A DNA stretch of 35,830 bases from a virus. The DNA lies in the IMG/VR virus record IMGVR_UViG_3300035698_022356, positions 1 to 35,830 of that record. The stretch is one strand, 5' to 3'. This document shows, piece by piece, positions 16,159 to 35,231 of the stretch. The number at the start of each line of letters is the position of its first letter. Position 1 is the stretch's first letter. The notes beneath the pieces are model-generated. The model ran no database searches and was not told the DNA's origin. It saw only the letters and a program-made list of their open reading frames with translations. Made by a program: the position numbers and the translations under genes.

Positions 16159-16524
16159 ATTGTAAGAGACCGGTGTTTGAGGTGTAGTTACAACAACTTC
16201 CTGATAACCCAGCTTGTTATCATGATTGTAAGAGACCGGTGTTTGAGGTGTAGTTACAACCTGACAGCCCATCTTTCTTGCAACTGATGCATTGTAAGAG
16301 ACCGGTGTTTGAGGTGTAGTTACAACGGCAAAGCTGCCGGTAAGTTAAGTATTTAAATTGTAAGAGACCGGTGTTTGAGGTGTAGTTACAACATTGCCGC
16401 GTCCGTCACCTGCCAGCAAAACATTGTAAGAGACCGGTGCTTGAGGTGTAGTTACAACGTTCATACTTCGGTAGATGTTTATTGTTAAATTGTAAGAGAT
16501 CGGTGTTTGAGGTGTAGTTACAAC
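16159..16524 (+). CRISPR. CRISPR array, 6 repeats of 36 nt and 5 spacers of 30 nt
   Basis: Repeats start at 16159, 16225, 16291, 16357, 16423 and 16489, each 36 nt, beginning ATTGTAAGAGACCGG and ending GGTGTAGTTACAAC. The first four are identical; repeat 5 has T18 to C and repeat 6 has C12 to T. Decay at the far end implies that the leader side is next to the effector gene. All five spacers are exactly 30 nt and differ from each other: 16195-16224, 16261-16290, 16327-16356, 16393-16422, 16459-16488. The repeat ends can pair (TTGTAA with TTACAA). I found no match of any spacer elsewhere in the window by eye. Guides would be read on the plus strand. Confidence 0.97.
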
Positions 16525-20613: not shown

Positions 20614-20817
20614 ATGGATGTTGAGGCGCGGACTTTGTATCGGCATGCTGCCGGGCCGGTGGTTGTTCTGTGGGTTGTTGGACTTGGGAAATTCCTTCCG
20701 TTTGTTCGGCGGGATTGTGATGACTCGCTAATGAAACTGGATGTGATCGATGGGGCTGGGACGCTTGATGAAGTTGGTGAGCAGTTGGGGCGATATCGGG
20801 GGAAGGAAATCAGTTAG
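20614..20817 (+). CDS. Small hypothetical protein
   Basis: A 67-residue protein. Its upstream sequence, ATTGATATGGAGTGAGTTGTTATGG, is one of three near-identical initiation regions, the others being before 22691 and 22919. They include GGAG nine or ten bases before the start. The protein has a hydrophobic centre (VVVLWVVGLGKFLPF) and an acidic C terminus; it may be membrane-associated. Family unknown. Confidence 0.55.
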   Translation: MDVEARTLYRHAAGPVVVLWVVGLGKFLPFVRRDCDDSLMKLDVIDGAGTLDEVGEQLGRYRGKEIS

Positions 20818-20905
20818 CAGTTAGTAGTTAAGAAAAGCAGTGAATAGTGAATAATGAATAGTGAATAATTGTGGTGTCCGCCGTTGGCGGACGGCTGTTT
20901 AATAT
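20815..20905. repeat. Composite repeat cassette with GTCCGCC hairpin
   Basis: CAGTTAG heptamers are followed by AAGAAAAGCAGTGAATAGTG-type units and a perfect hairpin GTCCGCC-GTT-GGCGGAC (20876-20892). Close relatives stand at 30992-31095 and 32689-32765, and variants with a GTCGC hairpin at 26936-27080 and 31540-31640. Each fills the space between a stop codon and the next ribosome binding site. Confidence 0.85.
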
Positions 20906-20930
20906 TTTTTTATAAAAGATGAGGTGTATT

Positions 20931-21176
20931 ATGAAATTTGAGTTAGGGATTAAGGCAAAAGATGTTGTGACAGGGTTTGAGGGAATAATTACCGGGAGAG
21001 TCTTGTACATTACGGGGTGTGATCAGTACCTTATCCATCCGCCAGTGGATAAAGCAGGTAAGCCTGTTGACCCCCGCTGGTATGACGAAAAACGGATTGA
21101 GGTTTTAGATGATAAGCCTCTAAAGCTCGACATGTCGGGAGATCCGGGACCTTGTGAGGCGGTGCCTATTAATTGA
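20931..21176 (+). CDS. Small phage protein, 'TGFeGiiTGr...GCdqYl' family
   Basis: An 81-residue protein. ATG 20931 follows GAGGTG by six bases; an upstream ATG at 20919 has no binding site. The sequence AKDVVTGFEGIITGRVLYITGCDQYLIHP, followed by DPRWYDEKRIEVL, belongs to a small, widespread phage family of unknown function: a beta barrel of about 70 residues ending in a W(Y/F)DE..I.V strand. The family assignment is from recognition of this motif order. No cofactor-binding residues are obvious beyond one Cys. Confidence 0.7.
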   Translation: MKFELGIKAKDVVTGFEGIITGRVLYITGCDQYLIHPPVDKAGKPVDPRWYDEKRIEVLDDKPLKLDMSGDPGPCEAVPIN

Positions 21177-21197
21177 CCCGGTAAGCAGAAATAATTA

Positions 21198-21254
21198 GTG
21201 CAGACAACGAAACCAGTTGCCGGTACAGCACTAGGCAACAAACGTTGTCTGCAC
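21198..21254. repeat. Palindromic repeat element, copy 1
   Basis: Perfect 12-bp arms GTGCAGACAACG (21198-21209) and CGTTGTCTGCAC (21243-21254) enclose the core CCAGTTGCCGGTACAGCAC...GGCAAC. The core is shared with three more copies (21664, 24060, 25790), whose arms are different but also complementary. The element looks like a mobile stem-loop of the REP or RPE kind. Confidence 0.75.
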
Positions 21255-21302
21255 GGGGCGATCAGGCAGAAATTACAGGATTGAATTTTTAGAGGTGATG
21301 AG

Positions 21303-21605
21303 ATGGGTGATGTTGTTGATGGGGTTCGGGCGTTTGGGGCTGGTGATGTTTCCGAGGCGATGATTGGGTGGAAGGTTCGATATGAGTACAATAAAATGAT
21401 TCTCTTTACCACCATTAAGGCGGTTCGGGTTGTTGGTGGTGAGGTCTGTTTTATTCTGAGTTGGATAACCGATCTGGGGCCGTTGATTGGGGCTGATGTT
21501 ATGCTCAAAAGGAGTGAGTATAAGAGCTTGCCGGGAGCTGACTGGCATAAGTTTGGGGTTGAAGTTGATCAGAGGTGTGGGCGCGGTGGTGTGAATTTGA
21601 ATTAA
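21303..21605 (+). CDS. Hypothetical protein
   Basis: A 100-residue protein with GAGGTG seven bases before ATG 21303. It appears to be a beta-rich single domain: MIGWKVRYEYNKMILFTTIKAVRVVGGEVCFILSWITDLGP, with a KLPGADWHKFGVEV-like end. No known motif. It lies among small accessory genes between repeat elements. Confidence 0.6.
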   Translation: MGDVVDGVRAFGAGDVSEAMIGWKVRYEYNKMILFTTIKAVRVVGGEVCFILSWITDLGPLIGADVMLKRSEYKSLPGADWHKFGVEVDQRCGRGGVNLN

Positions 21606-21754
21606 GATTTTTAACCACGAAGGTTAGAAGATCACGAAGGGAAGAATACAAATAGCAGGTCGGCTAAAACAACTCCAGTTGCTGGTACAGCACGAGGCAA
21701 CAATGGTTTTAGTTGAGCTGCGGCACAAGTAGAAAAAAACTGAGAGGTGATGGG
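21606..21754. repeat. AACCACGAAGG units and palindromic element, copy 2
   Basis: AACCACGAAGG- and CACGAAGGG-type units (21613-21645) are followed by the 49-bp stem-loop element 21664-21712, with outer arms CTAAAAC/GTTTTAG and the CCAGTTGC...GCAAC core. The downstream flank (GAGCTGCGGCAC...GAAAAA) is also shared with the copies inside the terminase genes. In the frame used there, this copy is interrupted by TGA after NNGFS. Confidence 0.8.
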
Positions 21755-21964
21755 ATGGCTAATGGGTTGCGAAAGATGATTGGGTGTGATTGTGATCAGG
21801 GTCGGCCGGAGAGTATAACGGTTGAGTTTTTTGATTTAGGGGCGTGCGATTGCTGGGTGAGCGATGCGAGGTTGGATGATGTGAAACGGATGATGGTGGA
21901 GTTTGGGCGATTGTATAGAAAGGCCGGGAAAAATATTGATGAGGTTAGGCCTTTGTTGAGCTGA
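21755..21964 (+). CDS. Small hypothetical protein
   Basis: A 69-residue protein starting at ATG 21755 with GAGAGG eight bases upstream. It contains MIGCDCDQGRPESI, then FFDLGACDCWVSDARLDDVKRMM, so four cysteines arranged as two CxC pairs, which may bind metal. C-terminal helix EFGRLYRKAGKNIDEVRPLLS. No family recognised. Confidence 0.6.
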   Translation: MANGLRKMIGCDCDQGRPESITVEFFDLGACDCWVSDARLDDVKRMMVEFGRLYRKAGKNIDEVRPLLS

Positions 21965-21972
21965 GGAATCGG

Positions 21973-22086
21973 ATGCCTGGCGTGATTGATGGGCTGTTGA
22001 ATGGCGTTGTCGCACTTAAGGCTACACTGGTTTGTGTGGAAGGGGATCGGGATAGGCTGCAGGCGGAAAAAGAGAAAAATATTTAA
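21973..22086 (+). CDS. Possible 37-residue protein
   Basis: ATG 21973 is preceded by GAGGAA and encodes MPGVIDGLLNGVVALKATLV with a charged helical end (EGDRDRLQAEKEKNI). The frame is short and no relative is known to me. The binding site and the amphipathic helix are the only support. Confidence 0.35.
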   Translation: MPGVIDGLLNGVVALKATLVCVEGDRDRLQAEKEKNI

Positions 22087-22178
22087 TATTAAGATTTTTT
22101 ATCCGCAGATAACGCAGATGGCCGCAGATTGAATTAAGAGATTAACCACGAAGGTTAGAAGGGCACGAAGGGTTTGTT
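22087..22178. repeat. CCGCAGATAACGCAG and AACCACGAAGG repeats
   Basis: Units of the form ATCCGCAGATAACGCAGAT (a second copy is near 27450) are followed by AACCACGAAGGTTAGAAGGGCACGAAGGG, nearly identical to 21613-21645. These are dispersed low-complexity repeats and carry no gene. Confidence 0.75.
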
Positions 22179-22385
22179 ATGACAGAAGAGCAGGGGTTAC
22201 AGGTTGAACGAAGTCGGGGGTTTTGGTGGGATGGGAATTTTGGTGAATGGAAACTGAATTATCGCGCGCGGGTGTGTACCTTTTTACCACGCGCTTGCGC
22301 GATCATTATATGCGAAAAAATGCGAAAAACGCGATTGGGGCGCATTAGGCGCATTGAGATTGGAGCGAAACGCAATGGCGAATGA
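22179..22385 (+). CDS. Small Trp-rich protein (copy B of duplicated segment)
   Basis: A 68-codon frame from ATG 22179. The central ~35 residues, RGFWWDGNFGEWKLNYRARV and the following CTFLPRACAIIICEK, are shared with the frame at 20368-20481. Substitutions between the copies are mainly synonymous (CTA/CTG, CCT/CCA, GCC/GCT, ATA/ATT) or conservative, which argues for selection on the protein. The C-terminal end differs and overlaps the next start. Function unknown; one of the copies could be non-functional. Confidence 0.5.
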   Translation: MTEEQGLQVERSRGFWWDGNFGEWKLNYRARVCTFLPRACAIIICEKMRKTRLGRIRRIEIGAKRNGE

Positions 22386-22674
22386 ATTTAATGTGGTTGG
22401 TGATCTGCTTCTGGATTGTGGGGTTTACCAGACGGTAGAGGTGCCGGAGGGATCGCAGTTTCTGGGTATGAAACTGGATGCGGAGCTTGACAAAATAGTG
22501 GTCTGGTATCTGCGGCCGGGGGAAGTTGAAAAGATGGTGGCGGTGGAGTTTTTGACTTTCGAGACATGGGTTGAATGTGCGGATATTCGCGGGCGGTATC
22601 TGGGTAGTTACCAGGGGGCTTATAAAAATATGAGGCATGTGTTTGTTCGGGAGCTGGTGCCGGAAGAATATTGA
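22375..22674 (+). CDS. Small phage protein, DUF7352-like
   Basis: A 99-residue protein starting at ATG 22375 with GGAGCG upstream. It reads FNVVGDLLLDCGVYQTVEVPEGSQFLGMKLD, then KIVVWYLRPGEVEKMVAVEFLTFETW. This is the pattern of a small beta-sandwich phage family ('...q.i.vP.gaqiL.v......i.lW..v.p....') seen beside other accessory genes. Its stop TGA is part of the ATTGATATGGAGTGA leader of the next gene. Confidence 0.6.
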   Translation: MANEFNVVGDLLLDCGVYQTVEVPEGSQFLGMKLDAELDKIVVWYLRPGEVEKMVAVEFLTFETWVECADIRGRYLGSYQGAYKNMRHVFVRELVPEEY

Positions 22675-22690
22675 TATGGAGTGACTTGTT

Positions 22691-22912
22691 ATGGCGGTTC
22701 GGTCATATGAAAGGGGCTGGCCAATTCATTATTACGATGGTAAGTGGGTGTATTCGGATACCCGTGAAGAAATTACCGGGCGGCGAGCGTGTCGGCGGTG
22801 CGGAAGGTTGCCGACGAAGGATGGACATGATGCGTGTGTTGGACATTTGCCGGGGAAAAACAGTGTGTGTTGTGGCCATGGGGTGTGGGGTTGCAGTATT
22901 GATATGGAGTGA
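22691..22912 (+). CDS. Small zinc-binding phage protein (CRRCGR...DACxG...CCGHG family)
   Basis: A 73-residue protein with the signature RACRRCGRLPTKDGHDACVG and, after HLPGKNSV, CCGHG. This motif, cysteines and histidines spaced CxxCGR.PT..G.DAC.G.LPGV..CCGHG, defines a small family found in many phages and prophages. It very probably binds zinc; its function is unknown. It is preceded by the second copy of the shared initiation region, and its own TGA forms part of the third. Confidence 0.75.
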   Translation: MAVRSYERGWPIHYYDGKWVYSDTREEITGRRACRRCGRLPTKDGHDACVGHLPGKNSVCCGHGVWGCSIDME

Positions 22913-22918
22913 ATTGTT

Positions 22919-23677
22919 ATGGCGGTGATGAGTGATAATCTGGAAGTTACGGATCGGAGCTTTGTTTTTCATGACGGGGCACGGCTGGGCGTTGGTAGGA
23001 CTCCCGGGGGCGGGGTCCTGCTGAGGCTTACCTACGGACGGGAAGAGCTGGCGGTTACGATGGACGGTGAAACCGCCGGGCGGTTGGCTGAGTGGATTAC
23101 ACTCGATGGGCAACAGCGGACGGCCGGGATGATTCTGGCGGAATGTGTCGAGCGCTATGGTCGAAACGGCAGGAAGATCGCAGGGGTTATACTTACTGAA
23201 TATGGCAATCTGGGTGAGTGTGAAGCTGCCAAAGTTGTCGGGCTTTGCAGGCAGACGATTGCGACCGCCAGGGAAACCACTATCCTGCCTGTTGATGCTG
23301 TTGACCTGGTGGAGCAGGTTCGGGCGTGGGGGTTGCCGAGGAGAAAGAGGAAGGAAACTGCGAAGAAAGTTAAGAGTTTAACCACGAAGCCGCCACCGGC
23401 GGTTTTAATACCCGGCAAGCCGGGGAAGGACACGAAAAAGATGGAATGTATTAAATGTGGGTGCACGGATGAGGATTGCGGGCAGTGTGTGGCGGCTCAG
23501 GGGCATCCGTGCCATTGGGTTGGGCCAGGTAAGTGCAGCAGGTGCTTTTGTAAGTGCGGGGAAGAACTTATAACGGATCGTGAAAAAGACGAACACTTGT
23601 GTGAAGAATGTCTGCGGATTAGAGTTAATGGGTTGGGGAAGAAGAGGAAGAAACACGATGATGATAAACAGGATTAG
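22919..23677 (+). CDS. Zinc-binding protein with a repeat-derived insert
   Basis: A 252-residue protein in three parts. Residues 1-65 form a beta-rich domain. Residues ~65-145 contain an HTH-like segment (NGRKIAGVILTEYGNLGECEAAKVVGLCRQTIATARE). The C terminus has a nine-cysteine cluster: CIKCGCTDEDC, CHWVGPGKCSRCFCKCG and CEEC, related to the 'CGCTd..C..gC.WV....CS.C' family. Residues ~152-175 (SLTTKPPPAVLIPGKPGKDTKK) are encoded by the dispersed repeat AACCACGAAG...GGACACGAA, interrupted by two hairpins (CCGCC-ACC-GGCGG at 23390-23402 and CCCGGC-AA-GCCGGG at 23411-23424). So a repeat has been inserted in frame as a linker. Role unknown; DNA binding is plausible. Confidence 0.7.
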   Translation: MAVMSDNLEVTDRSFVFHDGARLGVGRTPGGGVLLRLTYGREELAVTMDGETAGRLAEWITLDGQQRTAGMILAECVERYGRNGRKIAGVILTEYGNLGECEAAKVVGLCRQTIATARETTILPVDAVDLVEQVRAWGLPRRKRKETAKKVKSLTTKPPPAVLIPGKPGKDTKKMECIKCGCTDEDCGQCVAAQGHPCHWVGPGKCSRCFCKCGEELITDREKDEHLCEECLRIRVNGLGKKRKKHDDDKQD

Positions 23678-23801
23678 TAAAAAGTTATGGAGCTGGATTC
23701 GTCCGAAACGTAAGTGCCGCCGGTGCGGGAACTGCTGCAGCGATGTGGGGCGGGACTTCTGGGCGTTTACGGATCATCACAATATGGCGTTGACGGGATG
23801 A
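23658..23801 (+). CDS. Small protein with a CxxCGxCC motif
   Basis: A 47-residue protein whose start (ATG 23658) overlaps the end of the previous gene. After a basic helix it has CRRCGNCCSDVG, which resembles the metal-binding start of YkgJ-type domains but without the rest. Its stop TGA overlaps the next ATG (23798). It could be a truncated gene or a genuine micro-protein. Confidence 0.45.
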   Translation: MMINRISKKLWSWIRPKRKCRRCGNCCSDVGRDFWAFTDHHNMALTG

Positions 23802-23962
23802 AGGAGGTGGAGGTACAGACGGTCAGTATGATTGTTGTTCGTGCTGGGGAGTCAGGGTTCCTGGAAGCGTCCGGTGGAATGGAATTAGGGGCAATGATTT
23901 TAGAGGATGCTCGACACTTTAAATTAGGTGAAGAGTATTGTGTCGAATTTACAAAGGATTAA
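23798..23962 (+). CDS. Small hypothetical protein
   Basis: A 54-residue protein starting with an ATGA overlap. It is mostly beta-stranded (VEVQTVSMIVVRAGESGF, LGEEYCVEFTKD). A longer in-frame version would run back over the previous gene and is less likely. Its position just before the terminase genes is typical of small phage proteins of unknown role. Confidence 0.5.
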   Translation: MKEVEVQTVSMIVVRAGESGFLEASGGMELGAMILEDARHFKLGEEYCVEFTKD

Positions 23963-23965
23963 GAA

Positions 23966-24697
23966 ATGGCGAGTAAAAAAGCCACGAGTAAAAAAACAAA
24001 TAGCAGATCGGCTAAAACAACTAAAAAAGCCACGAGTAAAAAAACAAATAGCAGATCGGCTAAAACAACTCCAGTTGCTGGTACAGCACGAAGCAACAAT
24101 GGTTTTAGTCGAGCTGCGGCACGATCGGAAAAAGACCAGGCAGCCAAACGGGAGGTTGTTTCGGGGGCGTTTCTGGCGGCTGCTTTTGGGGTTGCTAAAC
24201 GAACTGTTCAGTCGTGGAAGAAAAACTATGGGATGCCGGCTATGGTGGCTAAGGATAAATATGATATCGCCGAAGTTGTCGCCTGGTTTGTTCGGTGGAA
24301 GCTGTCCGAAGTGGTTGTCGGGAATGGTGATGAAAAAAGATTGCTTAAGGCTCAGGCGGATGAGCGGGCGGAAAAGGCTAAACAGGCCGAGATGAATACG
24401 CAGCAGAGGAAGGGGGAGCTTATCGATGCCGGGACGGTTCGGCATGAACGGATACAGCGGATTGTTGCTGTTAAAACGGCACTGGAATATCTGGCGATTA
24501 TACTTAGTGAGAAACTTATCGGGGTTAAAGATAAACAACAAGTTCGGATGATCGTCGGTGGTGAGGTTTATAAGTGTCTGGAGAATTTCGCCGATGGTCG
24601 CGAAATAGAACAGGTTAAAAAGAAGAAAATTAAGAAGAAGAAGATCAAGAGTTTAACCACGAAGGGCACGAAGCACACGAAGCACAGCAAGCTGTGA
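23966..24697 (+). CDS. Terminase small subunit, repeat-extended at both ends
   Basis: A 243-residue protein before the large subunit. Residues ~66-112 (SGAFLAAAFGVAKRTVQSWK... YDIAEVVAWFVRWK) form the HTH domain of Nu1-type small subunits, and the rest is helical (NTQQRKGELIDAGTVRHERIQRIVAVK...), as in that family. It would bind packaging sites and recruit the large subunit. The first ~50 residues are made by a dispersed repeat: the 16-residue unit KKATSKKTNSRSAKTT occurs twice in tandem (23975-24022, 24023-24070) followed by PVAGTARSNNGF. The C-terminal SLTTKGTKHTKHSKL comes from AACCACGAAGG repeats and its stop lies in a CACAGC hairpin. Confidence 0.75.
   Translation: MASKKATSKKTNSRSAKTTKKATSKKTNSRSAKTTPVAGTARSNNGFSRAAARSEKDQAAKREVVSGAFLAAAFGVAKRTVQSWKKNYGMPAMVAKDKYDIAEVVAWFVRWKLSEVVVGNGDEKRLLKAQADERAEKAKQAEMNTQQRKGELIDAGTVRHERIQRIVAVKTALEYLAIILSEKLIGVKDKQQVRMIVGGEVYKCLENFADGREIEQVKKKKIKKKKIKSLTTKGTKHTKHSKL
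24060..24108. repeat. Palindromic repeat element, copy 3 (inside the terminase small subunit gene)
   Basis: A 49-bp stem-loop with CTAAAAC and GTTTTAG arms, identical in its core to the copies at 21664-21712 and 25790-25838. Read in frame as SAKTTPVAGTARSNNGF, a flexible polar linker. Confidence 0.85.
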
Positions 24698-24720
24698 TTT
24701 TGCCAGCGGGGCAGTGGGGA

Positions 24721-24810
24721 AAATCAGTTAACAGTTAACAGTAATCAGTTAGCAGTTATCAGTGAATAAATATTTTTTTGACAGGATAACAGGATCTACA
24801 GGATAAGAGA
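24721..24810. repeat. CAGTTAA heptamers and ACAGGATAACAGGAT repeat
   Basis: Heptamer units (TCAGTTAACAGTTAACAG and variants) are followed by GACAGGATAACAGGATCTACAGGATAAGAG. Shorter forms of the second type stand before the portal gene (28074-28090). There is no gene in this 134-bp gap before the large terminase subunit. Confidence 0.75.
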
Positions 24811-24831
24811 TTTAACTACGAAGTTTAATTT

Positions 24832-26943
24832 ATGATCGATATACAACCGGTAGTCTGGACATTGGAGGAACGGGAGGCCTGGAGGCCGGTGCCGCCGCTG
24901 TCGATTGCTGCCTGGGCACGCAAGTATATTAAACTTACTACCGAAATGGGGGTCGCAACTCCGGGAAAATACGATCCGGATATTACGCCCTGGGTGCATG
25001 CGATCTTTGCGGCATATACTAACCGCAGTCGGACGGGGGTTGTGTTCGTAAAGCCGGCACAGATTGGCGGGTCGCTTACCTCTCAAATCATAATCGCATG
25101 GGTGATCGATAATGACCCGTCCAATATCCTGAACTTTATGGATACAGCGGACAACGCTCGCTACGCCAGTACAAAACGGATCCAGCCGATGATCGATGCT
25201 CAGGATCGATTGCGACATAAGGTCGATCCGCCACGAAAAAGAAATAAACTATCGATTGGCTTTGATGGTGGGTCGCTGGACCTGGCGGGGGCTAATTCAC
25301 TTTCACAACTGAGTAATAAGTCGGCACCACGGGTCACACGGGATGAGATCGGTAAGTGGAAGGCGAAACTTGGCGCGGAAGCAGGAGCACTCGAAAACGC
25401 TGCACAGCGGACTAAAGGGCAATATTGGCATATGATGTTCGATCTATCGACGCCGGTGATGGATGGGGATCCGATCCTAAAACGCTACGACATATCCGAT
25501 AAAAATCAGTTCTATCTGCCGTGTCCGATATGCGGTGAATATCAGACCCTGAAGTGGGACCATGTTAAATGGCCGCATGATTCGGAAACGGGGGCTAGCT
25601 GTACGCCGGCTGAAGCTCGGGATAATTCCTGGTATGAGTGTGAACATTGCAGCGGGAAAATAACTGAAGGGTTTAAGCGGTGGATGAACGCCAACGGCGT
25701 TGCCATTAGAGCAGGGCAGACAGTTAACAGTTATCAGTTATCAGTTATCAGTAAAGAAGCCACGAGTAAAAAAACAAATAGCAGATCGGCTAAAACAACT
25801 CCAGTTGCTGGTACAGCACGAAGCAACAATGGTTTTGGCATGGCTGCGGAACAACTGGAAAAGACTGAACGCGAGGCGTTTGGGTGTTTGCAGGAATATG
25901 TTTGCTCGGCGGGGGCGAGTAGCTGGTCGGTTACTCTGCCTTCAGGAAAAATCAAGAAATATAAGATGGCCGGGTCCGCTCCGTTTAATCCGATATTCGG
26001 GCTGCATATTAATCGGCTCTATTCGGTGTTCGAGCCGTGGGGGGTGATAGCTGAGGAATGGCTGCAGGTCGGCTCGGACACATCCAAACTGCAGGCGTTT
26101 ATCAATTCGGCACTTGCCGAGCCGTTCAAACAAAAGACAGTCGATGTTCAAACCGAAGCGGTGATCTCACTCATCGATCGGAACCTGCCACTTGCTACTG
26201 TACCGGATGGGTTTGAATTTATTGTTGTTGGGACCGATTATCACGGACTGCGCTATAACGTTCGATATGTTGCTGTTGCGATCGATGCCGCGTACCGGAT
26301 GGCGATTATTGACTATGGGGAAACGGCGTCTCTGGCGTCACTGGCCGATCGGATCGGCAGCCCGTACGCTAACCAGGCAAAGACGGCGGAGATAACGGCC
26401 GATATGGTAGCGGTCGATGCGGGCTACGAAGCGACCACGATATATGACTTCTGCCGGCAGACGCCGGGAGCGATGCCGATATTCGGACGGACCGGCAAAA
26501 CATATCGACCGACCGATATCAGACCGCTGGATAAGTATCCGGATGGCCGGCCGATGAAGGGCGGGATGAAAATAATGATGGTTAATACGGATAACTGGAA
26601 GGATTATATCCATAACCTGATGACGTTATCGTGGGATGGACATGGTCAGTATGTCCGGATTGCAGACGGGGTCGGAGCGGACTTAATCGAATCGCTTACA
26701 TCAGAAAAAAGAATTGAAAAGACAGATGCGGCCGGGCGAACAACTACTACCTGGAGGCCGAAGGGGTCAGGGAAAAATCACTATTGGGATTGCCTGGTGT
26801 ATGCGACGGCGATGGCTAAATGGTGGGGGCCGCAGATAATCGCACATCGTCAGCAGATAAAACGAAAACAGATAAAGCCGACTCGACGCGATCGGGATGG
26901 ACGGGCTGGTGCGTATTTGGATAATATGCCGGATATCAGTTAG
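24832..26943 (+). CDS. Terminase large subunit, GpA type, with a repeat-derived insertion
   Basis: A 703-residue ATPase-nuclease that cuts and packages DNA into the prohead. The N terminus (SIAAWARKYIKLTTE) is typical of lambda GpA-like enzymes. A Walker A-like loop, KPAQIGGS, is near residues 74-81. RVTRDEIGKWK (~162-172) includes the acidic Walker B pair. A zinc ribbon, CPICG...CEHCSG, is at ~231-273. The nuclease domain shows VVGTDYHG, VAVDAGYEATTIYDF (~527-540) and YWDCLVYATAMAKWW. Residues ~296-336 (VNSYQLSVISKEATSKKTNS...) are encoded by a CAGTTAT heptamer run plus the palindromic element, in frame, just before the segment FGLHINRLYS that normally follows the zinc ribbon. The enzyme probably tolerates it as a surface loop. 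Confidence 0.93.
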   Translation: MIDIQPVVWTLEEREAWRPVPPLSIAAWARKYIKLTTEMGVATPGKYDPDITPWVHAIFAAYTNRSRTGVVFVKPAQIGGSLTSQIIIAWVIDNDPSNILNFMDTADNARYASTKRIQPMIDAQDRLRHKVDPPRKRNKLSIGFDGGSLDLAGANSLSQLSNKSAPRVTRDEIGKWKAKLGAEAGALENAAQRTKGQYWHMMFDLSTPVMDGDPILKRYDISDKNQFYLPCPICGEYQTLKWDHVKWPHDSETGASCTPAEARDNSWYECEHCSGKITEGFKRWMNANGVAIRAGQTVNSYQLSVISKEATSKKTNSRSAKTTPVAGTARSNNGFGMAAEQLEKTEREAFGCLQEYVCSAGASSWSVTLPSGKIKKYKMAGSAPFNPIFGLHINRLYSVFEPWGVIAEEWLQVGSDTSKLQAFINSALAEPFKQKTVDVQTEAVISLIDRNLPLATVPDGFEFIVVGTDYHGLRYNVRYVAVAIDAAYRMAIIDYGETASLASLADRIGSPYANQAKTAEITADMVAVDAGYEATTIYDFCRQTPGAMPIFGRTGKTYRPTDIRPLDKYPDGRPMKGGMKIMMVNTDNWKDYIHNLMTLSWDGHGQYVRIADGVGADLIESLTSEKRIEKTDAAGRTTTTWRPKGSGKNHYWDCLVYATAMAKWWGPQIIAHRQQIKRKQIKPTRRDRDGRAGAYLDNMPDIS
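25718..25838. repeat. Heptamer run and palindromic element, copy 4 (inside the large terminase gene)
   Basis: CAGTTAACAGTTATCAGTTA-type heptamers (25719-25752) are joined to an 80-bp block identical to that in the small subunit gene (25756-25835), including the 49-bp stem-loop 25790-25838. The whole segment keeps the reading frame of the gene. Confidence 0.88.
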
Positions 26944-27158
26944 CAGTTAGCAGTTATCAGTTATCAGTTAGCAGTCAGAAGTTAGAAGTTAGAAGTCAGA
27001 AGTTAGCAGTTAAGAAAAGTAGTGAATAGTGAATAATGAATAATGAATAATTGAGGGGTCGCTTCGCGACGTTATTTAAGAAATAGATCTCTCGGCTCCG
27101 CTCGAGATGACACACAGCAAGCTGTGTATTTGCCTGCAGGGCGAATCGATAACGTAAA
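26936..27158. repeat. Long repeat tract after the large terminase gene
   Basis: In order: CAGTTAG/CAGTTAT heptamers; AGAAGTTAGAAGTCAG units; the AAGAAAAGTAGTGAATAG block with hairpin GTCGC-TTC-GCGAC (27058-27070); a CTCTCGGCTCCGCTCGAGATG element; and the stem ACACAGC-AA-GCTGTGT (27112-27127). No gene. Confidence 0.8.
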
Positions 27159-27170
27159 TGGAAGTTGGTT

Positions 27171-27428
27171 ATGGGTGATTCTTTTTTAGATGATCTGCCG
27201 GACCTTGGGCTGGGTGAGCCGCCGGACAGGGCGAAGAAGAAGCGGCCGCAGGTTCAACTGGAACCTGGGGAGGTGTTTGAGCCGCCGCCGGTTCGGTGTC
27301 CGTTCTGCAATTGCGATGATACGCGGGTTACTAAGACATTAGCCACCGTGCCGATCAGGCGGTATCGGACCTGTCGGGGGTGTGGGAAGAATTTTAAGAC
27401 AGTCCAGTTTGAACAGGGGAGAAGGTGA
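27171..27428 (+). CDS. Zinc-ribbon protein
   Basis: An 85-residue protein starting at ATG 27171 with GGAAG nine bases upstream. The N-terminal half is acidic and Pro-rich (FLDDLPDLGLGEPPD). The second half is a classical zinc ribbon: CPFCNCDDTRVTKTL, then RRYRTCRGCGKNFKTVQ, like the C-terminal ribbons of TFIIS, NrdR and phage Ogr/Delta regulators. It may act in transcription or in head assembly; its place between terminase and the gpW-like gene favours neither clearly. Confidence 0.7.
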   Translation: MGDSFLDDLPDLGLGEPPDRAKKKRPQVQLEPGEVFEPPPVRCPFCNCDDTRVTKTLATVPIRRYRTCRGCGKNFKTVQFEQGRR

Positions 27429-27705
27429 GAAGGGAGAAGTTAAGATCAAGAGATTTGTCCGCAGATAACGCAGATTAACAAAAAAGCTGTTACATGGTTT
27501 TGGCTGTTTGGGGGAATGGGGGGAAATTGCAGTAAATTACTGCAAAATCAGGGGGTTAAGGGTCAATTCTTAAGGTGTTGGGGTTACCTATCTTTCCTAT
27601 TTTCTGGAAAACGAGCGGGCCAATGTCTGCGCGGTGGGAGAATTGCATCAGTTATCAGTTAGCAGTTATCAGTTAGCAGTTATCAGTTAGCAGTGAGGTT
27701 TAAGT
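27429..27705. other. Gap with an operator-like palindrome and heptamer repeats
   Basis: A perfect 9-bp dyad with one central base, TTGCAGTAA-A-TTACTGCAA (27527-27545), is the size and symmetry of an operator. A CCGCAGATAACGCAG repeat lies at 27460-27478 and a CAGTTATCAGTTAG heptamer run at 27648-27695. No credible reading frame. Confidence 0.5.
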
Positions 27706-27909
27706 ATGGCGGCTACTTTGGCGGAACAACTTACAAGCGTGCAGGCGGCGATTGCGGCGGTTGAATCTTCCGGGCAGTCGATTGGAGCTTCTGGGCAAAA
27801 TTGGACTCAGGCGGATCTGGGGGTTCTGTACGCTCGGGAGGAGTCGCTGCTTCGACGGATTGATAAGGCAGCCGCCGGCGGGATCGATCGGACAGTTGCG
27901 GAGTTTTAG
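27706..27909 (+). CDS. gpW-like head-tail joining protein
   Basis: A 67-residue, Ala-rich, two-helix protein: LAEQLTSVQAAIAAVESSGQSIGASGQNWTQADLGVLYAREESLLRRIDKA. This matches the gpW fold seen between terminase and portal genes in many phages (helix, short beta hairpin with 'sG.qs....' and 'T.AdL..L..R...L..ri'). In lambda gpW lets the filled head bind the tail. Position and length fit; preceded by GTGAGG. Confidence 0.75.
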   Translation: MAATLAEQLTSVQAAIAAVESSGQSIGASGQNWTQADLGVLYAREESLLRRIDKAAAGGIDRTVAEF

Positions 27910-28093
27910 ACAGTTAGCAGTTATCAGTTAGCAGTTTAAGAGAGTAACCACGGATTTGATATTTTAATTTCGTGTGGTTCGTGTGGTTTGTGGTTGAAGA
28001 AATATTAATTTAAGAGATTTAACCACGAAAAACACGAAATACACAAAAAAGAAAAAAGCGATTTTATTTTTTAAGACAGGATCTATAGGATAG
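27910..28093. repeat. Inverted TTCGTGTGG/AACCACGAA repeats before the portal gene
   Basis: After CAGTTAGCAGTTATCAG heptamers, TTTCGTGTGGTTCGTGTGG (27967-27986) is the inverse of AACCACGAAAAACACGAAAT (28021-28041), so one dispersed repeat is present in both orientations and the two can pair. A GACAGGATCTATAGGAT unit follows and supplies a weak binding site for the portal start. Confidence 0.7.
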
Positions 28094-29845
28094 ATGCGGG
28101 AAAAAGAACGAAACAAAATTAGTTTCACCAGGCGGCTTAGTCTGTCGATTGATCGGGCGATCTCGGTCCTGTCGCCGAAGGCGGCTTTTGGTCGGGCGAA
28201 TTATCGGTTTGCTTATGATGCGATCGATGGGAGCCGCACACGCAAGAAACGATCGCTTAACGGGGGGACGGCAGATAGCCAGCTTACCGAACATGCTCAG
28301 GATCAGCTGCGAGAGATTTTTCGTGATCTGTGCATAAATAATCCGCTGGTAAACGGACTCCTCAAGACCGAACGGGATGGATTGATCGGGTCCGGTGTGA
28401 AGGTTAAATTTGTTTCATCCGATGAAGCCTGGAATAAAAAAGCTAATGCTCTATGGCGAGCTGAGATGATCGAGTCGCCGTGCGAGGTTACGGGGCGATT
28501 CAATTTTAATCAATACCTGCGGATAAAGTATCTGAGCTATCGGCGAGATGGGGATTCCGGCACGATATTTACAGACTTCGCACTGCAGGCGATCGAAGGT
28601 GAACAGATTGGGACGCCTCTTTCCAAGACATCGAAAAACTACAAGATAGTTAACGGACTGGCGTTCTCCACACAGACCGGCAAATTACTGGGATACTATA
28701 TCGGTAAGCCGGCAGCCTATGGGTATATCGAACCGGACAGTTGGAAAAAGTATGACGCCGAAAATGTTCATATGATGTTCAGTCCGGAGCGGTTTTCGCA
28801 ATCGCGAGGTGAGCCGGTGCTTGCATCGTCGATTGACTGGATTGATAAACTCTGCGGGTATATGGATGCTGAGCTGGTGGCGGCAAAAGTTAATGCGGCG
28901 TTTTCGGTGTTCGTATCTCGGAAAGAAGGGTTTGGTGTGCCGGGTGCATTTACGGGCGGCTCAAGCTCGACGGGACTGGATCCGGATGGGAAGCGGCTGG
29001 AAAAAGTTTCGCCTGGGACGATTATGTATGGCAAGGACGGTGAGTCGGCTACGGGGATTGGGCAAGTCCATCCGGGCTCGCAGTTTGATCCGTTCACAAC
29101 GAAAATGCTGGCGATGATCGGGCGGCCGCTGCTGATGCCGCTTATTTTGATAACGGGGGACTTCAGCGGCGCAACCTTTATGAACGCACGAATCGCATAT
29201 CAAAAAGTACAGGAATCGTGGATCGCTGAGCAGGAGAACGTGGTTAAACCGTTTGTTGTTCGGGTGGCGAGGTGGAAACTTGGGCGGCTGGCAGCAGAGG
29301 GGAAACTTTCCGCGCGGGATGATGTGCGGATCGAGATCCAATGTAATCGATGGCCATATGTCGATCCGTTCAAAGAGGCGAACGCGGACGCAAAGGAACT
29401 GGATAACGGGACCACAACACGCGAGAAAATCTGCCAGCGAAAAGGCGAGGATATCGATGAGGTTACCGACCAGCTGCAGCGTGAGAAACAGGATCGGCAG
29501 GAGAAGGGGCTGGAAGATACTAACGATCCGTCCGGTAAGAACATGGAGAACTACGCACGAGCGGTGCGGTCCGGAGTTCCGATTTCAGTGATAGAGGCGA
29601 GGGTCGGACTTGGACTGCCGGAAGATCCGCCGAAAGGGGACCGGCTGCGGTTTAATGATCAGAATCTACTGCAATATCATATTGAAAATGGGATTGTGAC
29701 AATTAACGAGGGTAGGGCACGGATGGGGCTGCCGTCGGTTGCCTGGGGTGATGTTCCTGTTCGCAAGTCGGGTGTTGCTCCGGTTGAGACGGGCGGCGGT
29801 GAGAAGGATAAGACCGAAGATGAAGATGAGAAAGATGGGGAATAG
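28094..29845 (+). CDS. Portal protein, lambda gpB type
   Basis: A 583-residue protein forming the ring through which DNA enters the prohead. The sequence HAQDQLREIFRDLCINNPLVNGLLKTERDGLIGSGVKVKF, then RDGDSGTIF and ALQAIEGEQIGTP, is characteristic of lambda-type portals: the repeated 'R.R.L..nnp.a......... vG.Gi' stretch, then the wing region. The C terminus is charged (GGGEKDKTEDEDEKDGE), and loses the neck domain motif. It lies between the gpW-like gene and the protease, in the standard order. Confidence 0.9.
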   Translation: MREKERNKISFTRRLSLSIDRAISVLSPKAAFGRANYRFAYDAIDGSRTRKKRSLNGGTADSQLTEHAQDQLREIFRDLCINNPLVNGLLKTERDGLIGSGVKVKFVSSDEAWNKKANALWRAEMIESPCEVTGRFNFNQYLRIKYLSYRRDGDSGTIFTDFALQAIEGEQIGTPLSKTSKNYKIVNGLAFSTQTGKLLGYYIGKPAAYGYIEPDSWKKYDAENVHMMFSPERFSQSRGEPVLASSIDWIDKLCGYMDAELVAAKVNAAFSVFVSRKEGFGVPGAFTGGSSSTGLDPDGKRLEKVSPGTIMYGKDGESATGIGQVHPGSQFDPFTTKMLAMIGRPLLMPLILITGDFSGATFMNARIAYQKVQESWIAEQENVVKPFVVRVARWKLGRLAAEGKLSARDDVRIEIQCNRWPYVDPFKEANADAKELDNGTTTREKICQRKGEDIDEVTDQLQREKQDRQEKGLEDTNDPSGKNMENYARAVRSGVPISVIEARVGLGLPEDPPKGDRLRFNDQNLLQYHIENGIVTINEGRARMGLPSVAWGDVPVRKSGVAPVETGGGEKDKTEDEDEKDGE

Positions 29846-29855
29846 TGAATAGTGA

Positions 29856-29895
29856 ACACAGCAAGCTGTGATTTTGCCAGCGGGGCAGACGGGCG
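29856..29895. repeat. CACAGC hairpin repeat after the portal gene
   Basis: CACAGC-AA-GCTGTG (29857-29870) followed by ATTTTGCCAGCGGGGCAG. The same block stands at 24683-24715 and in variant form at 27113-27145. A mobile or homing simple repeat. Confidence 0.7.
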
Positions 29896-29936
29896 GCATG
29901 AATGAACCCCGATATACATTGGGATTGGAGTTTGTG

Positions 29937-30998
29937 ATGAGTCAGAAAAAAACAGATAAAAAACAGATGCCGGTTGCGGCTTTTAACCTGCCGATCGGAC
30001 AATGCAGCTTTATTGGTGATGGCGATCAGGCTAAAAAACTCAGACTTACACTCTACGACGGCTCGATTGTCAAACATTGGTACTGGGGTAATCTGGCGTT
30101 TGATCTTAGCTCGATGAAGCTGGCTAAAAAGTCCGTTCCGATTCTGGCTGATCACGATACCGCCAGGCGGATAGGGTTTTCTGATAATGCGAGCTTCGAT
30201 GGGAAGTTTGTCCTGGAAGGTAAGCCGCTTAATAACGAAGACGCGGCGGCTATACAGAGGGATTCGGATGAGGGGTATCCGTTTGAGGCGTCGCTGCGGT
30301 TCGATCCGGACAGGTCGAAAATTGAATATATTAAAGATGGACAGGTCGTTACTGTCAACGGCCGGACGCTTACGGGGCCCGGCGCGCTGATATCTAACGC
30401 GATGATAATGGAAGGCAGTGTGTGTACCTTCGGTGCCTTAACCGACTGCCACACGGAAACATTCACAGATTATATGGAGGGCATTGCTATGCCAGAGAAA
30501 GATGAAAAAAACAAAAATGAACAGCAGGTGGCGGCGATGACCGTCGCTAAGTTCACCGCGGAATATCCGGAGATATTCGCAGAGGTGACGAAAAACAGCT
30601 TTGAGGAAGGGCAAAAGGATGTGCGGGATGCGTTCGGAAAGTTCGTCGAGAAGTTCGGCGATGATCCGGAGTTACTGGTTCAGCAGTTCGCCAAAGGGGC
30701 GTCTCTGACAGATGCCATAACGGCACAAAACGCCAAACTCAAAAAGAAACTGGCGGATAAAGACGGCCAGCAGGCGGCCCCGGCGGCGGACGGTAAACCG
30801 GTAGTTGATCCGGCACTGCAGGAGTTCTCCGATGATGCGGCTGACGCTAAACCGGCGGAGGCTAAGCTGCAGACTGATGAGCAACTCAAAGAAACGTTTG
30901 CAAAGTCGGCTGAGCTGCAGGATGAGTTTGGCGGCCGCGTGGAGGACTATGTGGCGGTTGTTCGGGCTGAAGCGGATGGGCGTGTTCATATCAGTTAA
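29937..30998 (+). CDS. Prohead protease-scaffold fusion, Mu gpI/Z-like
   Basis: A 353-residue protein. ATG 29937 has GGAG eight bases upstream and begins MSQKKTDKKQMPVAAF; in-frame ATG 29898 is possible but less well placed. Residues 1-185 resemble Mu-like prohead proteases: ILADHDTARRIG gives the catalytic His (~73), and the turn GYPFEASLRF (~114-121) gives the Ser (~119). Residues 185-353 are acidic, helical and rich in Gln and Lys (EKFGDDPELLVQQFAKG), as in scaffolds. An internal ATG (30489) with an excellent GGAGGG site would produce the scaffold alone. The protease probably cuts the scaffold during prohead maturation. Confidence 0.8.
   Translation: MSQKKTDKKQMPVAAFNLPIGQCSFIGDGDQAKKLRLTLYDGSIVKHWYWGNLAFDLSSMKLAKKSVPILADHDTARRIGFSDNASFDGKFVLEGKPLNNEDAAAIQRDSDEGYPFEASLRFDPDRSKIEYIKDGQVVTVNGRTLTGPGALISNAMIMEGSVCTFGALTDCHTETFTDYMEGIAMPEKDEKNKNEQQVAAMTVAKFTAEYPEIFAEVTKNSFEEGQKDVRDAFGKFVEKFGDDPELLVQQFAKGASLTDAITAQNAKLKKKLADKDGQQAAPAADGKPVVDPALQEFSDDAADAKPAEAKLQTDEQLKETFAKSAELQDEFGGRVEDYVAVVRAEADGRVHIS
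30489..30998 (+). CDS. Internally initiated scaffold protein
   Basis: In-frame ATG 30489 is preceded by GGAGGG (30477-30482). It starts MPEKDEKNKNEQ and runs to the common stop (169 residues). Nested scaffold genes sharing the C terminus of the protease are known in lambda (C/Nu3) and Mu (I/Z). The strong internal site is the evidence; expression is inferred. Confidence 0.65.
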   Translation: MPEKDEKNKNEQQVAAMTVAKFTAEYPEIFAEVTKNSFEEGQKDVRDAFGKFVEKFGDDPELLVQQFAKGASLTDAITAQNAKLKKKLADKDGQQAAPAADGKPVVDPALQEFSDDAADAKPAEAKLQTDEQLKETFAKSAELQDEFGGRVEDYVAVVRAEADGRVHIS

Positions 30999-31098
30999 CA
31001 GTTAACAGTAAACAGATAACAGTCAAGAAAAGTAGTGAATAATGAATAGTGAATAGTGAATAATTGCGGTGTCCGCCGTTGGCGGACGGCTGATTATT
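30992..31098. repeat. Repeat cassette with GTCCGCC hairpin
   Basis: Heptamers (CAGTTAACAGTTAACAG) overlap the stop of the scaffold gene. They are followed by AGTAGTGAATAATG-type units and the hairpin GTCCGCC-GTT-GGCGGAC (31071-31087). It is nearly identical to 20815-20905 and 32689-32765. Confidence 0.85.
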
Positions 31099-31113
31099 AG
31101 AGAGGTGAAAATA

Positions 31114-31545
31114 ATGGCAAGTGATAAAGAAATAATTAGACAACTTACTGAGCGGGTCGAGGAGCTGGTCGAAGCAAACGAGATGCTTACCACACGGCTG
31201 GCTGAGGTGGATCAGCTGGATGCGATAAAGCTGGCCGCTAAAAACACCACGCTCAAAAAGAAGGTTTCCAACCTGACCGATCAGCTTAAGGCTACGGGTG
31301 GGGCGGCTCCGGTGAATATCCGCGGGTTCCTGCTGGGACATACTGACCCGTATGGGATGGGTGCGGTGCGTGCGTATCGAACCTGTGGCGGGCGATCAAC
31401 CCAGCATGATGCGTTGCCGTTTGTGCTGCCGGATAAGGACGCGGCAACTAAGACGGCGATTAAAAGCTATATCGTGCGGGCAGAGGGTGCCGGCGATAAG
31501 GATCGGGCTGAAGCGGCACGGAAGAAGCTGGCTGCTATCAGTTAA
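31114..31545 (+). CDS. Coiled-coil protein between scaffold and major capsid genes
   Basis: A 143-residue protein starting at ATG 31114 with AGAGAGGTGA upstream. Residues ~5-70 are a coiled coil (IIRQLTERVEELVEANEMLTTRLAEV). Residues 70-143 are a small domain with HTDPYGMGAVRAYR and a basic end. Its stop overlaps the next repeat (ATCAGTTAACAG). It may be an assembly or decoration factor; no family recognised. Confidence 0.6.
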   Translation: MASDKEIIRQLTERVEELVEANEMLTTRLAEVDQLDAIKLAAKNTTLKKKVSNLTDQLKATGGAAPVNIRGFLLGHTDPYGMGAVRAYRTCGGRSTQHDALPFVLPDKDAATKTAIKSYIVRAEGAGDKDRAEAARKKLAAIS

Positions 31546-31715
31546 CAGTTAGCAGTTATAAGTTAGCAGTTAAGAAAAAGTGAATAGTGAATAATGAATA
31601 GTGAATAATTGTGGTGTCGCTTTGCGACGTTGTTTATTCGCGGATTTAAAAAACAGTTTAACCACGAAGGACACGAAGGGTACGAAGGCTTTGTGAAATT
31701 CGGAAATAGAGATTG
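31540..31715. repeat. Repeat cassette with GTCGC hairpin and AACCACGAAGG units
   Basis: CAGTTAACAGTTAGCAG heptamers, AAGTGAATAGTG units, hairpin GTCGC-TTT-GCGAC (31616-31628), and AACCACGAAGGACACGAAGGG units (31661-31690) before the capsid gene's binding site. Confidence 0.8.
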
Positions 31716-31727
31716 TGAGGTAATACG

Positions 31728-32687
31728 ATGAGTGCAGCATCATTAGGATCAAGAGCGATTATAGGCCGGTTCTTCGCTGAACTGGCCGCGTATATAGGGG
31801 CAAGCTGGATACCAAACATATCCATGTTGTTTACAAGTGATCAGGAGTCGGAAACCTATAAGTGGCTCGGCCAGTCGCCGATGCTTCGTGAGTGGATTGG
31901 CGGTAAGAACGCTAAGGGGCTCCGCGATTTCGGGATGACTATCACGAACAAAGACTTCGAAGCGACCCTGGAAGTACTCCGGTCAGAAATCAGACGTGAT
32001 AAAACCGGCCAGGTAATGATCCGTGTGGCCGAACTTGCTAAGCGGGCTGGCGGGCACTGGGCTAAACTGCTTAGTACGTTGATTACCAACGGGACCGGTG
32101 ATACGAGCGGTAATTGTTATGACGGTCAGTATTTCTTTGATAGTGACCATAGCGAAGGCGACTCCGGTACGCAGCTTAATCTGTTGACTAACTCGCAGGT
32201 TGGGGCGCTGGATGTGACAACCGCTACGGCTCCGACACAACTGGAGGCAGCCAAGGCGATACTCGGTGTGATCGGGTATATGCTTGCCTATAAGGACGAC
32301 CAGGGTGAGCCGATGAATATGGATGCCAAACACTTTATCGTGATGACGTCCCCGGTATTGTGGCAGTTTCTTGCGCCTGCTGTTTATAGTCAGCGGGCGG
32401 GATCTGGCGAGACCAATCCGGCTCGTTCCATAATTGATAACAGCGGCTTTAAGATTGATGTCGTTGCTAATCCGTACCTGGCTTATACGACACAGTTCGC
32501 GACCTTCCGTGCCGACGGCGGTGTCAAACCGTTTGTTTGTCAGGAAGAGGTACCGATCCATATGAAGGTGCTGGGCGATGGCTCTGATGTTGAGTTTCTT
32601 AAGGCTAAGCACCTGTATTCAGCGGAAGCGGTGCGGAATGTCGGTTATGGCTACTGGCAGCATGCGGCTCACGCGACCATGAGCTGA
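31728..32687 (+). CDS. Major capsid protein, Mu gpT-like
   Basis: A 319-residue protein. The N-terminal part (SAASLGSRAIIGRFFAELAAYIGASWIPNISMLFTSDQESETYKWLGQSPMLREWIGGKN) matches Mu gpT-like major head subunits, including the conserved 'Y.WLG..P.mReW.G.r' motif. The middle contains LSTLITNG, the usual core of the spine helix region, and the C-terminal portion includes the P-domain beta sheet. No scaffold-cleavage site can be identified directly. It forms the icosahedral shell; the following genes are its decorating proteins. Confidence 0.9.
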   Translation: MSAASLGSRAIIGRFFAELAAYIGASWIPNISMLFTSDQESETYKWLGQSPMLREWIGGKNAKGLRDFGMTITNKDFEATLEVLRSEIRRDKTGQVMIRVAELAKRAGGHWAKLLSTLITNGTGDTSGNCYDGQYFFDSDHSEGDSGTQLNLLTNSQVGALDVTTATAPTQLEAAKAILGVIGYMLAYKDDQGEPMNMDAKHFIVMTSPVLWQFLAPAVYSQRAGSGETNPARSIIDNSGFKIDVVANPYLAYTTQFATFRADGGVKPFVCQEEVPIHMKVLGDGSDVEFLKAKHLYSAEAVRNVGYGYWQHAAHATMS

Positions 32688-32688
32688 T

Positions 32689-32765
32689 GAAAAGTAGTGA
32701 ATAGTGAATAGTGAATAATGAATAATGAATAATTGAGGTGTCCGCCGTTGGCGGACGGCTGATTA
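32689..32765. repeat. Repeat cassette with GTCCGCC hairpin
   Basis: AAAAGTAGTGAATAGTG- and AATAATGAATAATTG-type units with hairpin GTCCGCC-GTT-GGCGGAC (32740-32756), the third close copy of this cassette. Confidence 0.85.
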
Positions 32766-32790
32766 ATAAAAAAGAAATGAGAGGTTTATA

Positions 32791-33585
32791 ATGGCAACTT
32801 TGACAGCGGATTCACCGGTAACGACGGTGATTGGCGATAACGCTATCGGTATTATTGCTTCTGACATAGTTTATGAAGGGGCGATGGTAGGTGATAACGG
32901 GTCTGGTTATGGCAGGCCACTTGCGGCAGGTGATAAGTTTCTTGGCCATGCAATATCCAGAGTGACAAACGCAGTTGCTACGGCAGGGCTTTACAACATA
33001 ACTGTACGAACGGGCCGTTACCGTTTATTGGTAACGCTGGCTGGTTACATTACAGACGTTGGCCAGCCGGTTTACGCTTCGGACGATTCTGTCTTGACGT
33101 TTGTCGGTGCGGGCGTAGCTACAGGTAATAGTTACGTCGGCGTGGTGACACGTTATGTCAGTGCAACGCAGATGGAAGTCGAGTTCAGGCCCGGTGAAGT
33201 TGACGAGTTCGGTCCTAACACGGTTAATAGAATAATCACGGCGGCAGATGTTGCAGCAGGGCTTGCTGATAGCGGCAAGATAATCTATGTCACTGTAACC
33301 ACAAAGATTGTCTCAATGGGTGCTATAGCTACACTATTGAGTGGTTACAAGTTGACTATAGTTAATGCTGGCAAAGCAAGTGCTACCGTTGGTAACTTGA
33401 TTGTGGTTGACCCTGACGGAACAGAAGTTATTTCTGGCGGTTGCGGTCTTGCGGCTGGCGCTGCTGGTAAGAAGTTTTCTAACACTGCGGCAACAGCGAA
33501 GCGTGGTGATTATATCCAGCTTGCAGGCAACGCAACTGGGTGGAGTATTATCGGCCTGCGTGGAACGTGGGCGATCGAGTCGTAA
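32791..33585 (+). CDS. Capsid decoration protein, paralog 1
   Basis: A 264-residue protein, the first of two tandem paralogs. Residues 1-135 (AIGIIASDIVYEGAMVGDNGSGYGRPL... FLGHAISRVTNAVATAG) resemble the capsid cement or decoration proteins (DUF2190-like) encoded beside capsid genes. Residues 135-264 are a Thr/Gly-rich beta domain (VSMGAIATLLSGYKLTIVNAGKA). It shares its RBS region GAGAGGTTT.ATATGGCAACTTT with the second copy. Such proteins bind the outer capsid surface and stabilise the shell. Confidence 0.75.
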   Translation: MATLTADSPVTTVIGDNAIGIIASDIVYEGAMVGDNGSGYGRPLAAGDKFLGHAISRVTNAVATAGLYNITVRTGRYRLLVTLAGYITDVGQPVYASDDSVLTFVGAGVATGNSYVGVVTRYVSATQMEVEFRPGEVDEFGPNTVNRIITAADVAAGLADSGKIIYVTVTTKIVSMGAIATLLSGYKLTIVNAGKASATVGNLIVVDPDGTEVISGGCGLAAGAAGKKFSNTAATAKRGDYIQLAGNATGWSIIGLRGTWAIES

Positions 33586-33589
33586 AAAG

Positions 33590-33733
33590 TAGATAAGGCA
33601 GAAGGCAGAAGTTAGAAGTTAGAAGTCAGAAGTTAGAAGTCAGAAGTTAGAAGTCAGAAGTTAGAAGTTAGAAGTTAGAAGTCAGAAGTCAGAAGTTAGA
33701 AGTCAGAACAGAATTGGCGGGCATGGCCCGCCC
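33590..33733. repeat. AGAAGT repeat tract and GGCGGGC hairpin
   Basis: About 100 bases of AGAAGTTAGAAGTCAG units (33600-33705), then GGCGGGC-ATG-GCCCGCC (33716-33732), a perfect 7-bp hairpin of a type widespread in planctomycetes and other phyla. It separates the two decoration-protein paralogs. Confidence 0.8.
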
Positions 33734-33760
33734 TACAAAATAAAGATTGAGAGGTTTGAT

Positions 33761-34543
33761 ATGGCAACTTTAGCGGCTGATACACCTGTAATAGGGGTAA
33801 TCGGAAATAATGCTATTGGCATTATCGCTTCCGATATTGTCTATGAAGGTGCGATGGTAGGCGATAATGGGTCTGGTTATGGAAGGCCACTTGTGGCAGG
33901 TGATAAGTTTTTAGGGCACGCAATATCGAGAGTGACAAATGCCGTTGCTACGGCAGGGCAGTATGAGATAACTTTGCCAGCCGGTCGGTATCGTATGGTG
34001 GTTGACTTAGTTGGCCTGGTTACAGACGTTGGCCAGCCGGTTTACGCTTCGGACGATTCTGTCTTGACGTTTATCGGCGCCGGTGCTTCCGTAGGTAATA
34101 GTTATGTTGGCGTTATATCGCGTTATGTCAGTGCAACGCAAATGGAAGTTGAGTTTCGACCGTTGGAATGCGACGAGTTTGGCCCCAATACGGTTAATCG
34201 AATACTCAAGTCGGCGAATTACACGGCGTTACTGGCTGATAGCGGTAAGATAATCTATGTTGATACTACTACTGTAGTTATCACAATGACTATTATAGCT
34301 ACGCTGTTGAGTGGTTATGAGTTGACGGTCGTTAATGCCGGCGGTTTTGGTACGGTAATTACCGAAATCGACCCTGCTGCATCTGAGGTTATGTCGGGTG
34401 GTTGTGGTCTTGCGGCTGGTAGTGGTGGCGAGAAGCTTTCTAATACTAAGGCAACGGCACAGCGGGGCGATTTTGTGAAGATTGCCGGTAATGCAACTGG
34501 ATTCTCAACTATTGCGCAACGTGGTACTTGGGCTATGGCGTAA
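33761..34543 (+). CDS. Capsid decoration protein, paralog 2
   Basis: A 260-residue paralog of the preceding gene with the same domain order. It has one long identical DNA stretch with copy 1 (33050-33102 = 34020-34072, 53 bases), whereas neighbouring DNA differs at many third positions. This uneven identity suggests recent gene conversion. The C-terminal third differs most in sequence (ITMTIIATLLSGYELTVVNAGGF). Two decoration proteins allow mixed or alternative capsid surfaces, an inference. Confidence 0.75.
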   Translation: MATLAADTPVIGVIGNNAIGIIASDIVYEGAMVGDNGSGYGRPLVAGDKFLGHAISRVTNAVATAGQYEITLPAGRYRMVVDLVGLVTDVGQPVYASDDSVLTFIGAGASVGNSYVGVISRYVSATQMEVEFRPLECDEFGPNTVNRILKSANYTALLADSGKIIYVDTTTVVITMTIIATLLSGYELTVVNAGGFGTVITEIDPAASEVMSGGCGLAAGSGGEKLSNTKATAQRGDFVKIAGNATGFSTIAQRGTWAMA

Positions 34544-34585
34544 AAAGCAGGTAGTACACGAGAGGCAGCTTGACGGGGTTTGTTA

Positions 34586-34685: not shown

Positions 34686-34688
34686 AGA

Positions 34689-35217: not shown

Positions 35218-35231
35218 AGAGGGTTAAGGTT

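Follow-up and report, generated by a model that had tools for sequence, protein, structure and literature searches.

A palindromic repeat lies in frame in both terminase subunit genes of a tailed phage

Terminase genes and copies of the repeat

The genes for the terminase small subunit (TerS) and large subunit (TerL) lie on the plus strand at positions 23966 to 24697 and 24832 to 26943, respectively, of the window, which is the whole of the 35,830-bp virus record IMGVR_UViG_3300035698_022356. The 243-amino-acid TerS matched PHROG 57 (1.6e-17) over residues 56 to 215. The 703-amino-acid TerL is of the GpA type (PHROG 15, 1.2e-129), with a GpA ATPase domain (PF05876, residues 42 to 289, 172 bits) and a GpA nuclease domain (PF20454, residues 389 to 667, 131 bits), both scoring above the cut-off. 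In a fold search these domains matched only large-terminase folds, and the catalytic-core positions D171, E172, D469, D529, and D653 are conserved.

Each of the two genes carries a copy of the same repeat. The copy in terS (24022 to 24132, with a hairpin at 24054 to 24112) and the copy in terL (25752 to 25862, with a hairpin at 25784 to 25842) are identical over 85 nt (24022 to 24106 and 25752 to 25836), and the similarity runs on without gaps to 111 nt at 91% identity. Both stand in frame 0 of their own open reading frames (ORFs) and give the peptide ATSKKTNSRSAKTTPVAGTARSNNGF, in agreement with the original prediction of an identical block translated in the same frame. Immediately upstream in terS, sequence inspection and blastn self-matches revealed an exact partial tandem copy consisting of the left 48 nt of the element (23974 to 24021). 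Two further copies are intergenic. The one at 21642 to 21740 (hairpin at 21658 to 21716) is 90% identical to the terS copy over 99 nt; its hairpin is kept, and its core is followed by an in-frame stop codon; its existence shows that the block is not merely a protein motif. The other, a variant at 21198 to 21254, retains the core CCAGTTGCYGGTACAGCACKARGCAACAA (82% over 41 nt) between different 12-bp arms that are perfectly complementary, just as had been predicted. The shared unit thus spans 99 to 111 nt with a 59-nt hairpin inside it; the repeat and stem-loop first described as a block of about 80 bp are real, but the shared block is longer than the hairpin.

The core pattern GTTGNNGGTACAGCACNANNCAAC occurs four times, always on the plus strand, against 0 expected from 100 shuffles. 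All four copies fall within 4.7 kb (21.2 to 25.9 kb) around terS and terL in the same orientation. Four of the six reading frames of the element are open, so the frame shared by TerS and TerL was not forced by stop codons alone. Third codon positions do not hold an excess of the differences among copies.

Hairpin structure

The hairpin consists of an outer stem of 8 to 12 bp, an inner 6-bp stem (GTTGCY/RGCAAC), and a 12-nt loop, 10 nt of which, GGTACAGCAC, are invariant in all four copies. Its folding energies were below those of shuffled sequences in every copy (z = -5.5, -3.2, -4.1, and -2.5). The outer stem pairs close to the ends of the hairpin, but the flanks of the copies are unrelated. 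The copy at 21642 to 21740 had been called decayed, but its stem is complete, with 11 bp that include G-U pairs, and it is the terL copy that has diverged, its outer right arm being altered so that 8 bp of the outer stem are left.

When the four copies were aligned, 92% of cells paired, versus 22 to 54% when the alignment was slid by 1 to 3 columns. Three stem pairs change on both sides among the copies, including A-U to C-G (columns 10/52) and U-A to C-G (columns 26/39), and shortening of the arms between copies is nearly symmetric. The covariation counts are small, because there are only four copies, and were reached by 17 to 44 of 500 shuffles; the compensatory changes are therefore suggestive rather than strong. 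A comparison with the 4,227 Rfam families (E values up to 5) gave no relevant match.

The insertion in TerL and the extension of TerS

In TerL, the element is part of a larger insertion at about 25702 to 25914 (residues ~291 to 361), composed of heptamers, the element, and a 53-nt tail. The heptamer array, (CAGTTAN)4 at 25721 to 25748 on the plus strand, is likewise in frame and belongs to a repeat family that is also found between genes, so that the insert unites two repeat families that occur separately elsewhere in the genome. Residues 291 to 361 have no counterpart in 87 aligned TerLs (occupancy 0.00). The stretch from G289 to S398 comprises 110 residues here, versus 25 to 48 in the listed relatives among about 130 GpA-type TerLs, and the insertion site is the interdomain linker between ATPase and nuclease, which is naturally variable in length. 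Judged against some 130 homologs in these alignments, the segment is a genuine insertion. The original prediction had held that GpA homologs would lack the segment, and that finding it in the terminases of unrelated phages would speak against an inserted repeat; it was looked for there and did not occur. An AlphaFold2 model of TerL built with 50 sequences had a mean pLDDT of 83, with both domains well predicted and the insert at 33 to 43, and the insert is accordingly predicted to be disordered. Translational bypassing of the insert was considered and set aside as unnecessary, because the frame is open throughout.

The situation in TerS is less clear-cut. The conserved, helix-turn-helix (HTH)-like part begins after residues 1 to 59, which are derived from the repeat and, like residues 216 to 243, are predicted by AlphaFold2 to be disordered. 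By eye, no in-frame start codon separates the element from the conserved domain, and the element is therefore translated if TerS is. The closest TerS relatives (L163 and L135) have N termini that are unrelated, and for this reason the segment is more safely described, from sequence comparison, as a repeat-derived N-terminal extension than as a firm insertion. Insertion into both subunits, as first proposed, thus holds for TerL and is less certain for TerS. The disordered C terminus of TerS is itself made of repeats, a CACGAAG 9-mer repeat and the CACAGCAAGCTGTG palindrome (24655 to 24697, plus strand).

Distribution of the element

Strict and relaxed hairpin patterns, as well as the CACAGCAAGCTGTG repeat, were found in IMG/VR only in one other contig, IMGVR_UViG_3300005935_002708 (L004; 10,070 bp), which is 100% identical to positions 22257 to 32326 of the window. 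The element DNA had no match among phage and plasmid records. A search of 84,980 species genomes for its exact 19-nt core gave 32 matches, all attributable to chance and lacking the flanks of the element, and there was no match in 301 genomes from the phylum to which an Anaerolineae locus (L010) belongs; a planctomycete host gained no support. A covariance model run on 82 relative loci and 18 records or genomes recovered the four copies of the window alone, besides one weak match (E value of 0.2). A single-protein query found no close TerL relatives. Close relatives by capsid carry divergent terminases and for that reason gave no empty site at the DNA level.

Relation to known repeats

In-frame palindromic repeats that are tolerated in proteins are best known from Rickettsia, and what we observe appears, by analogy, to be the same phenomenon in the terminase genes of a phage. 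The Rickettsia palindromic elements (RPEs) are repeats of ~100 to 150 bp, found between genes and in frame within conserved genes, where they have a fixed frame and give a tolerated hydrophilic peptide (PMC2229807, PMC10969869); a guanylate kinase that carries an RPE is reported to be both translated and active (PMC2229807). The element described here, with a shared unit of similar length, has an RPE-type placement in that it stands in frame 0 in TerS and TerL, only two genes, and has two intergenic copies. It differs in belonging to a phage and not to Rickettsia, in having only four copies, and in sharing its insert with heptamer arrays. No sequence match to RPEs was found with the exact 19-nt core as the query in species genomes, and terminal repeats with target duplication were not recognized. 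The predicted resemblance thus stands as an analogy, the element seemingly working like RPEs, and homology is not established, nor is membership in the RPEs or in the miniature elements known as MITEs.

The same applies to bacterial small mobile repeats such as Correia/NEMIS, ERIC, and RU-3, which are likewise short, form hairpins, and become fused in frame to ORFs (PMC2229807), but here neither a signature of terminal inverted repeats and target-site duplication nor a parental transposase was recognized. By eye, the alignment revealed no target-site duplication around the copies, and no empty allele was seen. The sole transposase-like gene seen was a TnpB/Cas12f-like ORF (15068 to 16138), with no copy of the hairpin near it, and no TnpA was among the genes scanned. 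The palindromic amphipathic repeat coding elements (PARCELs) are likewise coding repeats with dyad symmetry that may be mobile (PMC2996958). PARCELs, however, are 25-residue tandem amphipathic domains, whereas the peptide here is rich in Lys, Ser, and Thr, is predicted to be disordered, and occurs once per gene apart from the partial duplicate.

Interpretation

We believe that the locus probably reflects a lineage-specific palindromic repeat that spread by copying inside this phage genome, its in-frame copies being tolerated as a disordered linker or tail. A repeat of about 75 to 110 nt would have been copied to four sites within 4.7 kb in one orientation, and two of the copies would have landed in frame, one before the DNA-binding domain of TerS and the other in the permissive linker that joins the two domains of TerL. 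Both would be translated as a Lys/Ser/Thr-rich disordered peptide that is tolerated and, presumably, functionally neutral. Mobility is suggested by the copy number and by the fact that the components of the composite insert also occur independently. The repeats may have spread by ectopic recombination with one another or by template switching, with the hairpin perhaps assisting. The confinement to one short stretch and one orientation counts against copying or mobility, since local duplication or local function would fit it as well. Further points against are that neither a target-site duplication nor a transposase nor an empty allele was recognized and that the element is known from this virus only.

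A local function could be that of a nucleic acid signal, such as a regulatory RNA or a pac or cos site to which TerS binds when packaging begins, the coding position then being secondary. Some phages have their pac site within terS, and a signal would account for same-strand copies around terS and terL as well as for an invariant loop between stems that change with pairing kept. Nevertheless, one copy is buried well within terL and has lost part of its outer stem, relatives with homologous terminases are without the hairpin, and Rfam provided no match, all of which makes this reading unlikely. We regard as similarly doubtful a broader proposal, that the invariant loop and co-varying arms mark a hairpin family not described before, under selection as RNA or DNA (a packaging signal, an RNA regulator, or a self-copying hairpin) and spreading in frame through coding genes.

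Alternatively, recombination might have carried the Lys/Ser/Thr-rich N terminus of TerS over to TerL, where it would be of use as a basic tail for binding DNA, with the palindrome incidental. The peptide is indeed basic, the identity between terS and terL is the highest of all (85 of 85 nt, including flank outside the hairpin), and the 48-nt tandem copy in terS keeps the frame. Against this, the copy at 21642 to 21740 keeps the hairpin despite its stop, the variant-arm copy has only the hairpin core in common with the others, and the differences do not cluster at third codon positions, so that we consider the explanation quite improbable. From an unusual composite insert in a single metagenomic virus, one could suspect that the assembly is chimeric or that the terminase genes are degenerate and the insert meaningless. 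This is very hard to reconcile with two intact ORFs that keep their conserved residues and with the 100% identity of the second contig across the region, though that contig possibly comes from the same sample.

If the copying of a tolerated repeat is indeed the explanation, then the essential motors of viruses can absorb repeat-derived disordered segments, even in a compact phage genome and in both terminase genes, and the TerL insert shows where GpA-type terminases can accept extra sequence, namely between their ATPase and nuclease domains.

Other repeats and genome features

Dense short repeats extend from 20811 to 35220, all on the plus strand and mostly at gene ends, and are absent from the left 20 kb. 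They include the heptamers CAGTTAN and GAAGTYA, octamers AGTGAATA, 9-mers CACGAAGGN, and GTCCGCC and CACAGCAAGCTGTG palindromes. A AACCACGAAG repeat with the short palindromes CCGCCACCGGCGG and CCCGGCAAGCCGGG (23380 to 23440, plus strand) is in frame in the ORF at 22919 to 23677. The closest relatives by capsid, L133 and L134 (69% identity), have neither the hairpin nor the heptamers of the window. Other 7-mer arrays and CACAGAGAA 9-mers are found at gene boundaries in L133 (926 to 1065), L134 (1015 to 1060), and a further relative, L136 (389 to 495), and in one relative the array forms the start of a protease ORF (MSNEKRETRNGL). Since close relatives also have boundary repeats, the piling up of short repeats at gene boundaries, at times entering ORFs, appears to be typical of this phage group, and the terminase-gene hairpin is the most striking case of repeat accumulation here.

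Besides its GpA-type terminase, this tailed phage has a lambda-family portal and a Mu gpT-like capsid protein. Positions 1 to 127 and 35704 to 35830 are identical, and these 127-bp ends indicate a circular or terminally redundant genome. A virion-protein gene is duplicated in tandem 3' of the capsid gene (32768 to 33585 and 33738 to 34543; ~78% DNA identity); L133, L134, and L141 have one homolog, placed before the capsid gene. The TnpB/Cas12f-like protein of 356 amino acids (NCBIfam guided_TnpB, 132.7 bits; PADLOC Cas12f, 94 bits) is followed after ~20 nt by a CRISPR-like array of six 36-nt repeats with 30-nt spacers (16159 to 16524), the spacers having no match in the window or in the fetched loci. 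By eye, its C-terminal zinc finger is absent, and so are the RuvC catalytic residues (GID to GIY; E to N); the protein may accordingly be related to phage TldR, guided by the array but dead as a nuclease.
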